Positions 29,446 through 31,849 of a DNA stretch of 39,029 bases are shown here, in pieces. Position 1 is the first letter of the stretch. The number at the start of each line of letters is the position of its first letter. Both the position numbers and the translations under genes were made by a program. The notes below the pieces were generated by a model. It saw only the letters and a program-made list of their open reading frames with translations. It was not told where the DNA came from and searched no databases. The stretch comes from Clostridiales bacterium (lineage in GTDB: Bacteria > Bacillota > Clostridia > Peptostreptococcales > Anaerovoracaceae), in assembly GCA_022775805.1 (NCBI GenBank), contig JALFKB010000075.1, forward strand, positions 1-39,029. The letters are read 5' to 3'.

Positions 29446-30417
29446 CTATATTTTCTCAGTGTAGCTTCCCAGGAATGTCATGGAATCGCAAAGGTTGTCC
29501 AGTTCACACAGTGTGTTGACGAACTCTCCGTGATACATTGATGCTTCGTAATCAAAGTAGAACATGAATTCGAAATCCGTATCAGGAATCGGTCTTGATT
29601 CCAGCTTAATCAGGTTGTAACCCTTCTCCTCGAATTTTCCCAGAATTCTGTAAAGGCTTCCCGGTCTGTGTGGGATTGTTGCCATGATGCTTGTCTTGTC
29701 GGCTCCCGGATAAATCTGAGGCGTCTTGCTGATGCAGATGAATCTTGTGAAGTTGCTGTCGTGATCCTGAATTGACGGTCCGATGTTCTTCAGGTTGTAC
29801 AGCTGAGCACACCTGTTGGAGCATACAGCTGCCAGCGGCTCATCGGATTCCGCCACCCTTTTCGCAGCCTCGGCAGTGTTGCTGCAGGCAACAAGCTTGG
29901 CATTAGGATAGGTCTTCTTGAGATAATCCTCGCACTGGGCCAGAGCCTGTTCGTGGGAATAGATTTCCGTTATTCTTCCCGGATCCGTACCCGGTTTTAC
30001 CATGAGGTTGTGCTGGATATGAAGCCTTGTGCTTCTAACGATATAGAATTTGTGATCCACCATCAGGTCATATATCTTGTTCACAGAACCGGCGGTGCTG
30101 TTTTCGATAGGCAGAATTCCGTATTCGCAAAGGCCCGCTTCAATTGCCGAGAACACTGCTTCGAAGGACTTGAAATACATCATGTCCGGGTGCCTGAACA
30201 TTGTTTCGGCAGCCTCCTGGGAGTTTGAACCCTCAATTCCCTGACATGCCACAGATGCACATTCCGGCCAGTTCATAGGCCCATTGGCAAGTGCACTTTC
30301 AAGGAAAACTCTGAATTCTTTGTCCTCGTCTGCTATTTCCTCATTAAGTCTGATCTTTTCCTTGTAAAGCTGTGAGATCTGTTCATCAAGTTCCATCCTT
30401 CTGGCGTTAATATCCAT
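29446..30417 (-). CDS. pheA: Prephenate dehydratase with ACT domain and possible chorismate mutase remnant
   Basis: A 323-residue enzyme that converts prephenate to phenylpyruvate, first gene of the aromatic operon. The catalytic domain holds CEYGILPIENSTAGSVNKIYDLM and SNFTRFICIS (catalytic Thr-Arg-Phe); the C-terminal ACT domain has HRPGSLYRILGKFEEKGYNLIKLESRPI, the Phe-binding ESRP motif. The first 38 or so residues (MDINARRMELDEQISQLYKEKIRLNEE…) look like the first helix of an AroQ chorismate mutase cut short. AAGGAGG is 7 bases before the ATG. The gene lies behind an attenuator (30435-30468). Confidence 0.93.
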   Translation of the reverse strand: MDINARRMELDEQISQLYKEKIRLNEEIADEDKEFRVFLESALANGPMNWPECASVACQGIEGSNSQEAAETMFRHPDMMYFKSFEAVFSAIEAGLCEYGILPIENSTAGSVNKIYDLMVDHKFYIVRSTRLHIQHNLMVKPGTDPGRITEIYSHEQALAQCEDYLKKTYPNAKLVACSNTAEAAKRVAESDEPLAAVCSNRCAQLYNLKNIGPSIQDHDSNFTRFICISKTPQIYPGADKTSIMATIPHRPGSLYRILGKFEEKGYNLIKLESRPIPDTDFEFMFYFDYEASMYHGEFVNTLCELDNLCDSMTFLGSYTEKI

Positions 30418-30434
30418 TATTATTCCTCCTTAAT

Positions 30435-30468
30435 AAAAAAAACGGTACCTGCGCCCTGCAAATACCGT
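30435..30468 (-). terminator. Attenuator terminator in the pheA leader
   Basis: On the minus strand ACGGTA (30468-30463) pairs with TACCGT (30447-30442), and TGC with GCA inside, around the loop AGGGC; eight T follow at 30442-30435. It stands between the leader peptide gene and the pheA ribosome site, so it must be bypassed for the operon to be expressed. The left arm plus loop (30468-30453) can instead pair with GCCCTGACCGT at 30520-30510. Confidence 0.85.
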
Positions 30469-30509
30469 AATGCTTACTGTAGCTATCACCTGTCAGCACT
30501 CCACATATC

Positions 30510-30520
30510 ACGGTCAGGGC
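30510..30520 (-). promoter_or_regulatory. Antiterminator strand of the pheA attenuator
   Basis: GCCCTGACCGT (minus strand, 30520-30510) begins two bases after the leader peptide stop codon. GCCCTG is complementary to CAGGGC (30458-30453) and ACCGT to ACGGT (30468-30464), with only the bases between them bulged. This pairing would prevent the terminator stem. A ribosome sitting at the leader stop codon would cover this strand. Confidence 0.7.
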
Positions 30521-30521
30521 A

Positions 30522-30608
30522 TTAAAAATATCCAGCGCTAAAGTAAAAGCTCTGGCTAAAATAAAAGTAATATGCCTTTGTTCCGTTTAAATTAAGTCTT
30601 CCGTTCAT
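30522..30608 (-). CDS. Phe/Tyr-rich leader peptide of the aromatic operon
   Basis: A 28-codon frame from ATG (30608) to TAA (30522). Its second half contains YYFYF (residues 13-17), FYF (21-23) and a final YF (27-28): 5 Tyr and 5 Phe among the last 16 residues, out of none in the first 12. It lies about 50 bases after the predicted transcription start and ends right before the antiterminator strand. It should act as a sensor: ribosomes stalled at Phe/Tyr codons leave the antiterminator free. The ribosome site is weak (AAAAGG about 12 bases upstream). The role is inferred from architecture, as in enterobacterial pheL. Confidence 0.8.
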   Translation of the reverse strand: MNGRLNLNGTKAYYFYFSQSFYFSAGYF

Positions 30609-30664
30609 GATAGATTATTACCTTTTCTCGGCGGCAGTTTCTCTCCGCCGATTCCTACAATAAG

Positions 30665-30693
30665 AGTAAACCACCATTTCGGGGAAATGTCAA
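30665..30693 (-). promoter_or_regulatory. Promoter of the aromatic amino acid operon
   Basis: A perfect TTGACA (30693-30688, minus strand) and TTTACT (30670-30665) with a 17-bp spacer. The start would be near 30658. The early leader also holds a 7-bp hairpin TCGGCGG/CCGCCGA (about 30627-30650). Confidence 0.7.
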
Positions 30694-30703
30694 GGGTGTA
30701 TTG

Positions 30704-30718
30704 TTTCGATTCAATACT
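30704..30718. repeat. Left copy of a 15-bp inverted repeat
   Basis: TTTCGATTCAATACT at 30704-30718 is the exact reverse complement of 30832-30846. This copy is just upstream of the pheA -35 box and also overlaps a smaller GTATTG/CAATAC dyad. Confidence 0.6.
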
Positions 30719-30764
30719 TTTTTGAAATTTATTTGTGTATTCTCACAAAAGGCGATGTGAGCAT

Positions 30765-30794
30765 TTTACACCGGCTTTATATTTTGTTTATACT
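30765..30794 (+). promoter_or_regulatory. Promoter candidate of the bile salt hydrolase gene
   Basis: TTTACA (30765-30770) and TATACT (30789-30794) with an 18-bp spacer. A second -10-like TATAAT at 30813-30818 lies closer to the gene but has no good -35. Confidence 0.5.
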
Positions 30795-30831
30795 GTTCAC
30801 ATGATCTGAAGGTATAATGCTGTTTGAAGAT

Positions 30832-30846
30832 AGTATTGAATCGAAA
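30832..30846. repeat. Right copy of a 15-bp inverted repeat
   Basis: AGTATTGAATCGAAA at 30832-30846 matches the complement of 30704-30718 at all 15 positions. This copy ends in the ribosome site region of the bile salt hydrolase gene. Confidence 0.6.
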
Positions 30847-30859
30847 GGAAGTGATATAC

Positions 30860-31849
30860 ATGTGTACAGCTGTAACTTACAAGACAAGGGACTCCTACTT
30901 CGGAAGAAATCTGGACTATGAGTTTTCTTACGGGGAGGAGGTTGTGGTGATGCCAAGAAACTACCCCGTCGCATTCAGACATGCTCCGGGATTTGAAAGC
31001 CATTACGCCATTGTGGGAATGGCCTTTGTGGCGGAGGAGACGCCCCTGTTCTATGACGCCATGAACGAACAGGGGCTGGGAATGGCGGGGCTGAACTTCG
31101 TGGGAAACGCCAGATACAGCAAGCTCGATACCCGCAGCTCCGATTCCGGCAGCTCAGTGGACAACATTGCCCAGTTCGAGCTGCTGCCGTGGATTCTGGG
31201 ACAGTGCAGGACTGTTAAGGATGCGAAGAAGCTCCTTGAGAGAATCAACATTATAGATGAAGCCTTCAGCAGCAGTCTTCCCGTATCACAGCTTCACTGG
31301 CTGATTGCGGACAGAAACGAGTCCATCACACTGGAGCTTACCGAAAAGGGCATGAACATATATCCCAATCCCGTGGGAGTGCTGACAAACAACCCGCCCT
31401 TTGATTATCAGATGTTCGCTATGAACAATTATATGGCACTGTCGCCGAAGCAGCCGGAGAACAATCTGAGAGTTCCCCTTGATAAATACAGCAGAGGAAT
31501 GGGTGGTATGGGCCTTCCGGGAGATCTTTCCTCCCAGTCACGTTTCATCCGGGCAGCCTTCACCAAACTGAACTCCCGTTCAGAGGATACGGAGCTTGCA
31601 AGCGTGAGCCAGTTCTTTCACATTCTGGAATCGGTGAGCCAGCCCAGAGGCTGCTGCATGGTTTCTGAGGGAGAGTACGAGGTGACACTCTATTCCTCCT
31701 GCTGCAATCTCGACAAGGGAATCTACTATTATAATACCTATGATAACCATCGCATCTGTGCAGTGGATATGTACCGGGAGAATCTGGAGAGCAGCCGCCT
31801 TGCCAGATATCCCATCACCGGCAAGGAATCAATTCTGTTTCGTCATTAG
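30860..31849 (+). CDS. Choloylglycine (bile salt) hydrolase family enzyme
   Basis: A 329-residue Ntn-hydrolase. After loss of Met1 the nucleophile is Cys2 (MCTAVTYKTRD), and the family residues are R16 and D19 (FGRNLDYE), N79 (AGLNF), N177 (VLTNNPPF) and R228 (SSQSRFIRAAF). It should split glycine or taurine from conjugated bile acids; some relatives prefer penicillin V, and the sequence alone does not decide. The start at 30860 is forced because Cys must follow Met; GGAAGTGA lies just upstream, and the 12 codons before it are not used. No signal peptide, so cytoplasmic. It is monocistronic with a strong terminator. Confidence 0.92.
   Translation: MCTAVTYKTRDSYFGRNLDYEFSYGEEVVVMPRNYPVAFRHAPGFESHYAIVGMAFVAEETPLFYDAMNEQGLGMAGLNFVGNARYSKLDTRSSDSGSSVDNIAQFELLPWILGQCRTVKDAKKLLERINIIDEAFSSSLPVSQLHWLIADRNESITLELTEKGMNIYPNPVGVLTNNPPFDYQMFAMNNYMALSPKQPENNLRVPLDKYSRGMGGMGLPGDLSSQSRFIRAAFTKLNSRSEDTELASVSQFFHILESVSQPRGCCMVSEGEYEVTLYSSCCNLDKGIYYYNTYDNHRICAVDMYRENLESSRLARYPITGKESILFRH

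Follow-up and report, generated by a model that had tools for sequence, protein, structure and literature searches.

Attenuators of the trpL and pheL type are known from enterobacteria, where a leader ORF rich in codons for the product amino acid is combined with 1:2, 2:3 and 3:4 alternative pairings of the leader RNA. T-boxes sense tRNA directly and do not need translation. His leader peptides of hisS and hisZ in bacilli are presented in the part of PMC2965389 at hand, and a Leu-rich ilv leader of S. aureus in that of PMC5794164. For aromatic genes, the available portion of PMC8632094 gives uORFC-13-1, a predicted Phe uORF before aroF with 24 representatives, in Acholeplasma and unassigned sequences only, and the legend of figure 6 in PMC6429828, a five-genome study, names two candidate Phe/Tyr uORFs at shikimate genes. 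In the window, which is the whole stretch of 39,029 nucleotides analysed here, a leader of this general layout stands on the minus strand ahead of pheA.

Leader, aromatic operon and proposed attenuation

The leader comprises the following elements, given in the direction of transcription:

30693-30688, minus strand: -35-like TTGACA (by-eye reading)
30670-30665, minus strand: -10-like TTTACT after a spacer of 17, preceded by TGG (by-eye reading)
30651-30627, minus strand: strong, GC-rich 5'-terminal hairpin of the leader RNA (fold)
30608-30522, minus strand: leader peptide ORF of 28 codons, MNGRLNLNGTKAYYFYFSQSFYFSAGYF and stop (read directly from the sequence)
30586-30572, minus strand: region 1 (ACGGAACAAAGGCAT), paired with region 2 in the free RNA (fold), with a CAGC/GCTG counterpart in relatives by eye
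30520-30507, minus strand: region 2, the antiterminator strand GCCCTGACCGTGAT (folds and strand-pairing computation)
30471-30453, minus strand: region 3, left arm and loop of the terminator, with region 2 or region 4 as partner
30468-30442, minus strand: intrinsic terminator stem-loop of 11 pairs, regions 3:4 (terminator scan; pair changes in relatives)
30442-30435, minus strand: T8 tract (read directly)

Direct reading confirmed the 28-codon frame reported in the first-pass annotation, the last 16 codons of which (YYFYFSQSFYFSAGYF) include 10 for Phe or Tyr (5 F, 5 Y) and none for Trp, a clustering of codons for end products of the operon, in which both pheA and tyrA are found. The own genome shows no enrichment of five consecutive aromatic codons (40 places, compared with 60 for the reversed pattern); the aromatic run alone is therefore not unusual, and the combination of ORF, terminator and gene is the telling feature. 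The leader rule used below demands at least 7 F/Y/W in 16 codons within an ORF of 10-60 aa, a terminator within 200 nt and then a gene. The consensus promoter scan called nothing at the leader (30300-30900 region), TTTACT being absent from its list because the scan accepts only second hexamers with A as their second base; TTGACA is also present, by eye, upstream of leaders L003, L007, L004 and L005. The Shine-Dalgarno sequence of the leader start codon is weak (AAAGG about 12 nt 5' of the ATG, by eye), and the 241-nt leader folds with z = -2.28, 3 of 200 shuffles being equally good. No NCBIfam or Pfam family was matched by the peptides of four leaders at E <= 10, a search of little power with peptides so short. 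Divergent from the aromatic operon, on the opposite strand, lies a choloylglycine (bile salt) hydrolase gene (30824-31849, NF038245 above cut-off).

Downstream of the leader, the operon is composed of eight closely spaced genes of the same strand:

30417-29446, minus strand: pheA, prephenate dehydratase (NF008865, PF00800; ACT domain match below the Pfam cut-off)
29385-28384, minus strand: aroF, DAHP synthase (TIGR01361)
28384-27545, minus strand: tyrA, prephenate dehydrogenase (PF02153/PF20463)
27548-26508, minus strand: aroB, 3-dehydroquinate synthase (TIGR01357)
26504-25188, minus strand: aroA, EPSP synthase (PF00275; TIGR01356 below its cut-off)
25197-24136, minus strand: aroC, chorismate synthase (TIGR00033)
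24185-22614, minus strand: fused chorismate mutase / shikimate dehydrogenase / shikimate kinase of 523 residues (PF01817, PF08501, PF01202, all above cut-off)
22617-22189, minus strand: aroQ, type II dehydroquinase (TIGR01088)

Phe and Tyr are both products of this operon, and none of the eight genes was identified as a trp gene. The sequence AAGGAGG stands immediately 5' of the pheA start at 30417. The product of pheA carries about 50 extra N-terminal residues that resemble, by eye, a reduced chorismate mutase, and a chorismate mutase domain is also present in the fusion gene. Relatives of this PheA, at 51-59% identity, come from MAGs whose labels are mostly Clostridia or Oscillospiraceae. 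Two contigs labelled Treponema (L087 and L102) hold a pheA that is near the clostridial genes (56% and 54% identical to the query), through either transfer or binning error.

The leader is, with a probability of about 0.92, a ribosome-mediated transcription attenuator that would sense charged tRNA-Phe and tRNA-Tyr. Anatomy, alternative pairings, conservation, pair changes and recurrence were computed; promoter use, translation, stalling, termination and the response to amino acids are what we infer. Transcription would start upstream of 30608 and the leader ORF would be translated close behind the RNA polymerase. With ample Phe and Tyr, the ribosome would arrive at the stop codon and cover region 2, which starts one base later, whereby regions 3 and 4 would pair and transcription would halt ahead of pheA. 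Under scarcity of Phe-tRNA or Tyr-tRNA, the ribosome would stall in cluster one (YYFYF) or cluster two (FYF) and mask region 1; region 2 could then pair with region 3, and the polymerase would read on into the eight-gene operon. The dual sensing of Phe and Tyr, already supposed in the first-pass annotation, fits the codon make-up of the leaders, as the best 16-residue windows of 56 leaders contain 239 F, 217 Y and 15 W.

Alternative pairings, conservation and the hairpin within the ORF

The antiterminator strand GCCCTGACCGT had been placed two bases past the ORF; it begins in fact one base past the TAA. Its reported complementarity to the left arm of a terminator (30468-30453) followed by T8 was found again, in two blocks (ACCGT:ACGGT and GCCCTG:CAGGGC), and the fold lengthens GCCCTGACCGT to GCCCTGACCGTGAT. 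The terminator begins 38 bases beyond the antiterminator strand and, together with its T8, is the sole terminator-like site on both strands of 30300-30900 (shuffle mean 0.3).

The RNA ahead of the ribosome was folded with the ribosome at successive codons, before and after synthesis of region 4; the front edge of the ribosome was taken to lie 15 nt from the first base of the P site. For stalls at residues 14, 17 and 22, the RNA preceding region 4 folds into a 14-pair antiterminator. Once the full RNA is considered, this fold is still the best one at residue 22, and the terminator is favoured at residues 14, 17, 27 and 28. With the ribosome at the stop codon, the antiterminator is impossible and the terminator forms. 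In the constrained comparison the terminator state is better by about 5 kcal/mol. Since the terminator is favoured in the full RNA, the order of synthesis matters, as in textbook attenuators. According to these folds, clusters one and two should sense, whereas the last cluster (YF-stop) is probably no sensor, since a stall there already hides part of the antiterminator strand. The earlier proposal that stalling at the aromatic codons frees the antiterminator strand and a ribosome at the stop codon covers it holds in the computed folds for both these clusters and for the stop, but probably not for YF-stop.

In 6 of the 9 other leaders, averaged pairing of the left arm is clearly lower with the ribosome at the stop than at the aromatic codons (L003 from 0.92 to 0.38, L007 from 0.77 to 0.32, L008 from 0.77 to 0.27, L225 from 0.76 to 0.08, L230 from 0.80 to 0.37 and L260 from 0.62 to 0.35). 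L004 passes from 0.76 to 0.54 and L268 shows no fall; L005 failed the terminator rule and is for that reason missing from the left-arm, own-versus-cross and strand-pairing sets. In the window this averaged measure goes the wrong way, rising from 0.56 under stalling to 0.86 at the stop, since the arm pairs locally, a pairing that the explicit folds show to be other than the antiterminator.

Comparison with related genomes, as recommended in the first-pass annotation, showed that the aromatic codons and the alternative pairings are kept, with changes on both sides of pairs; neither a loss of this conservation in relatives nor a T-box in the leader was found. Homologous leaders stand ahead of pheA in relatives, for example TRTAAYFGFTFQGYYFSAGSLCC (L003) and NTAVYFAFRFQNYYYYGSGNCAA (L007). 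A covariance model built from 5 sequences (R1) and searched against 49 genus genomes gave matches at E <= 1 in 14 of them, strong in 9 (the own genome and eight further). Genomes outside the model scored 111.7 (G182), 105.9 (G186), 83.7 (G033, known before the search and held out of model building) and 72.3 bits (G017). Among the weak genus matches, of which L173-L177 and L182 were inspected, L173 and L176 are other aromatic leaders, L175 is ambiguous and no aromatic leader was seen at L174, L177 and L182. In 119 family genomes, R1 gave 19 non-own matches at E <= 1, of which 7 are an aromatic leader before an aromatic-pathway gene (L143, L144, L146, L149, L152, L156 and L157) and 12 are not, the genes being recognised by eye; on 45 loci it gave 10 matches at E <= 1. 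Weak R1 matches were left out of the leader counts. In G017 a transposase-like ORF (by eye) lies between leader and pheA (L006:533-1500).

A joint change of the three strands can be followed by eye, the window having AGGCAT / ATGCCCTG / CAGGGC in regions 1, 2 and 3 where relatives have CAGC(AG) / (CT)GCTG / AGCA. On an alignment of five sequences (A2), 93.1% of cells pair, a value reached by 2 of 500 shuffles, which gave 89.3%; slid versions gave 25-53%. The structure counted is partly derived from A2 itself. Two-sided changes on A2 occur at four pairs of the terminator and at none of the inner hairpin among these five sequences. The 1:2 helix, present in the free-RNA fold, has 80% of its cells paired on A2 and no two-sided change.

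The leaders fall into two forms. Type B, the form of the window, has WG or QG, then a YYF-like run, then SAG; type A, found before aroF, reads FAAEYYYYYF...KVNFAA and is without SAG. A further hairpin lies within the ORF of the window:

30555-30532, minus strand: inner hairpin CCAG-A-GC ... GC-G-CTGG, with aromatic codons in the loop (comparison of leaders; pair changes over 23)

It was compared in a set of 24 leaders from ten families chosen by a SAG-like motif, from which L312 was omitted as near-identical to L311, and pairs were counted over 23 rows, L007 being left out for its longer loop. In this count, done without a shuffled control, with the L029 stem arm placed by hand and over rows of related genomes that are not independent, stem positions 1, 2, 4, 6 and 7 are paired in 23/23, the pair type varying at 4, 6 and 7. 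Position 5 is paired in 20/23, with A-U, G-C, G-U and U-A all occurring; position 3 is a purine mismatch in 22/23 (19 G-G, 3 A-G), and positions 8 and 9 are paired in 12 and 14 of 23. In the type B leaders with a terminator by rule (23 of 24), the left arm of the terminator finds some partner strand 3' of the S codon, at -7.4 to -24.1 kcal/mol (no shuffles).

The recurrence of a Ser-Ala motif in leaders of ten families, in rows picked by that very motif, could be taken for an arrest peptide, whose nascent chain with the conserved SAG would stall the ribosome on a ligand or on free Phe/Tyr instead of on hungry codons. This we judge improbable. The serine codon is AGC in 23/23 rows, as the RNA stem demands, and in L007 GSG replaces SAG, yet the full stem (CCAGAAC/GTTCTGG) is kept; both point to RNA without being proof. 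In addition, type A leaders have no SAG, and neither the length nor the order of the aromatic run is constant. Since AGC is invariant and the L007 stem is whole without SAG, the motif is best read as an RNA constraint, and a peptide constraint as its main cause was rejected on the same two observations. Sensing of Trp is argued against, since the Trp codon of many leaders lies inside the stem and only 15 of 471 aromatic residues (56 leaders) are W. Beyond the attenuator itself, the inner hairpin, with its AGC serine codon and mid-stem purine mismatch in ten families, might be recognised specifically by RNA polymerase, NusG or some other factor as a second signal beside tRNA charging, within a Phe/Tyr regulon of operon and symporter in which leader and Tyr T-box replace each other at an orthologous gene in one genus; we hold this composite proposal to be rather unlikely.

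T-boxes, exchange of sensors and recurrence of the leader

The first-pass annotation had found no T-box core sequence in the leader and had set the leader logic against T-boxes as the usual solution. The former is borne out, as Rfam 15 at gathering score (4227 models, presumably including the enterobacterial Phe leader model) gave no family matching the window, and at E <= 10 only two chance-level matches and no T-box within 30380-30830. The latter stands in part: an aromatic leader is probably used here, but T-boxes are not absent from the own genome, in which three matches below the family cut-off precede ileS-, leuA- and trpB-like genes (by eye). At E <= 0.001 at least one T-box match was obtained in all 61 genomes searched; with stricter filters there are 7-26 per genome in 24 other-family genomes, 1-6 in 36 genus relatives and 3 in the own genome. 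Aromatic leaders as a mere consequence of T-box loss were rejected, since leaders also occur in T-box-rich families.

Control of the operon by a T-box or other riboswitch, the ORF being a by-product, could draw on this presence of T-boxes in the own genome and in every genome searched; it is very improbable, however, in view of the Rfam results at the leader, of 20 pheA loci of relatives in which no T-box was found at gathering score, and of 20 aroF loci of other families with a single T-box above that score (L316:2360-2619), which lies 3' of aroF. At L316 itself, aroF thus has an aromatic leader before it and a T-box after it.

In the own genome, the search for five aromatic codons gave 40 places, and the leader rule was applied to 30 of them, the window's own being among the ten left out. 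A single leader by rule was found among the 30, MRNELSIANVKKYYYFYFYPSCQMG, before a sodium/solute-symporter-like gene (L392:1465-1653, G000 contig C82), with fold z = -7.06 and region 1:2 pairing GCATTGCAAA:TTTGCAATGC. The PutP- and SSS-family models match the symporter below their cut-offs, and no NCBIfam transporter model does so above cut-off; its predicted substrate is Tyr/Phe. At E <= 1e-60 it was detected in 41 of the 49 genus genomes, from which 30 listed loci were compared. The 12 closest of these have an aromatic leader in 11 cases and a T-box at E <= 0.01 in none; the twelfth (G025; L401, upstream of 1029) has kept the terminator with no leader peptide seen, possibly a natural loss of the sensor. 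Among the other 18 listed loci, an upstream T-box is found in 17 (9 above and 8 below gathering score), with a UAC (Tyr) specifier in 17/17 at a position inferred from the cmscan alignments; none was found at L429, the ORF of which reaches the locus edge. On the tree of the 30 symporters the label switches once (support 100/98, midpoint root, two rows unlabelled) and the leader rows form one group, in which GGATAA/TTATCC (G000, G184) and GGTTAA/TTAACC (the rest) co-vary, 9 of 11 by script and 2 by reading. As judged from these sequences, a Tyr T-box and a Phe/Tyr leader peptide are exchanged at one orthologous gene; which sensor appeared first depends on the tree root. The Tyr specifier of the symporter T-boxes would also be an independent pointer to Tyr sensing by the leader. 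With a T-box clade and a leader clade of orthologues in one genus, the symporter provides a natural experiment in which the exchange of a tRNA-charge sensor can be studied directly.

Recurrence of the leader was assessed at aroF. The family sample consisted of 100 aroF (TIGR01361) loci from 99 of the 111 genomes with an above-cut-off match; two of the 99 are genus members and the own genome was left out. A leader by rule was found at 48/100 loci on the sense strand and at 0/100 on the opposite strand, 42 of the 48 directly 5' of aroF and the other six before pheA (1), aroB (3), tyrA (1), all by eye, and a gene not recognised (L292). The 52 misses divide into 23 with aroF close behind another ORF, 2 without upstream sequence, 11 with an aromatic leader by eye that fails the strict rule and 16 with nothing clear. 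In other families of the order the rule found 14/30 aroF loci (0/30 opposite), distributed over 8 of the 11 other families sampled, to which the pheA leader of G047 (L029) adds a ninth; in two of the 11 no aromatic leader was found. In the genus it found 15/29 (0/29 opposite), 4 of which had been counted before as pheA leaders. Phe-rich leaders (MRFSFTAxFSFFTF-like) with a terminator-like element and then pheA were also seen in MAGs labelled Oscillospiraceae (L040, L046, L052, L054, L064, L088 and L090), roughly 370-530 nt 5' of the PheA match; they are apparently a separate family.

Over the 48 family leaders, region 2 pairs with its own terminator at a mean of -15.6 kcal/mol and with those of other genomes at -10.8 (cross-pair SD 3.2). 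Its own terminator ranks first in 13/48 (median rank 3.5), and the fit of regions 2 and 3 lies more than 2 SD from shuffles in 33/48 and within 2 SD in 15/48. For 8 genus leaders the values are -19.0 and -15.2, with the own partner best in 4/8 and 7/8 beyond 2 SD. In 11/14 of the other-family leaders, the end of region 2 lies 17-36 nt upstream of the stop codon; its masking by a ribosome at the stop, as proposed for the window, therefore cannot fully explain those leaders. That the locus is an intergenic terminator beside a chance aromatic ORF without regulation, which the lack of enrichment of aromatic runs might allow, is scarcely credible against the strand counts given above and the own-versus-cross complementarity of region 2. 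The recurrence suggests that several families of one order repeatedly rely on classical ribosome-mediated attenuation to control the synthesis of aromatic amino acids.

Comparison with known systems

The kind of mechanism is already known from trpL and pheL, and for the widely distributed leader family we found no account in the literature searched. The literature search, with supplementary files outside its scope, returned no account of this aromatic leader family, and the portions of PMC11109978, PMC7438776 and PMC2494555 at hand hold no description of it. Attenuation of aromatic genes is proposed where T-boxes are the expected solution and where no Rfam model matches the window.

With uORFC-13-1, compared by its description only, the window shares a short ORF with Phe codon(s) and a terminator before aroF; unlike the window, the part of PMC8632094 at hand describes at least one Phe residue and no Tyr run. 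The uORFs of PMC6429828, compared by the legend only, are likewise aromatic uORFs at shikimate-pathway genes and could be related to the leader family of the window. The leaders of PMC2965389 and PMC5794164, as far as the portions at hand go, are leader peptides of Firmicutes where T-boxes are usual, for other amino acids and genes.

The attenuators of the pheL/trpL type share with the window an ORF rich in product codons, a stop codon adjoining the antiterminator strand and the 1:2 / 2:3 / 3:4 pairing. Unlike them, the leader described here would respond to Phe and Tyr together and carries an extra hairpin in its ORF, and no sequence relation was detected with Rfam and NCBIfam. Finally, the T-box (RF00230, UAC) before the orthologous symporter has the same target gene, concerns Tyr and is expected to control termination as well, and differs from the leader peptide by its direct sensing of tRNA.
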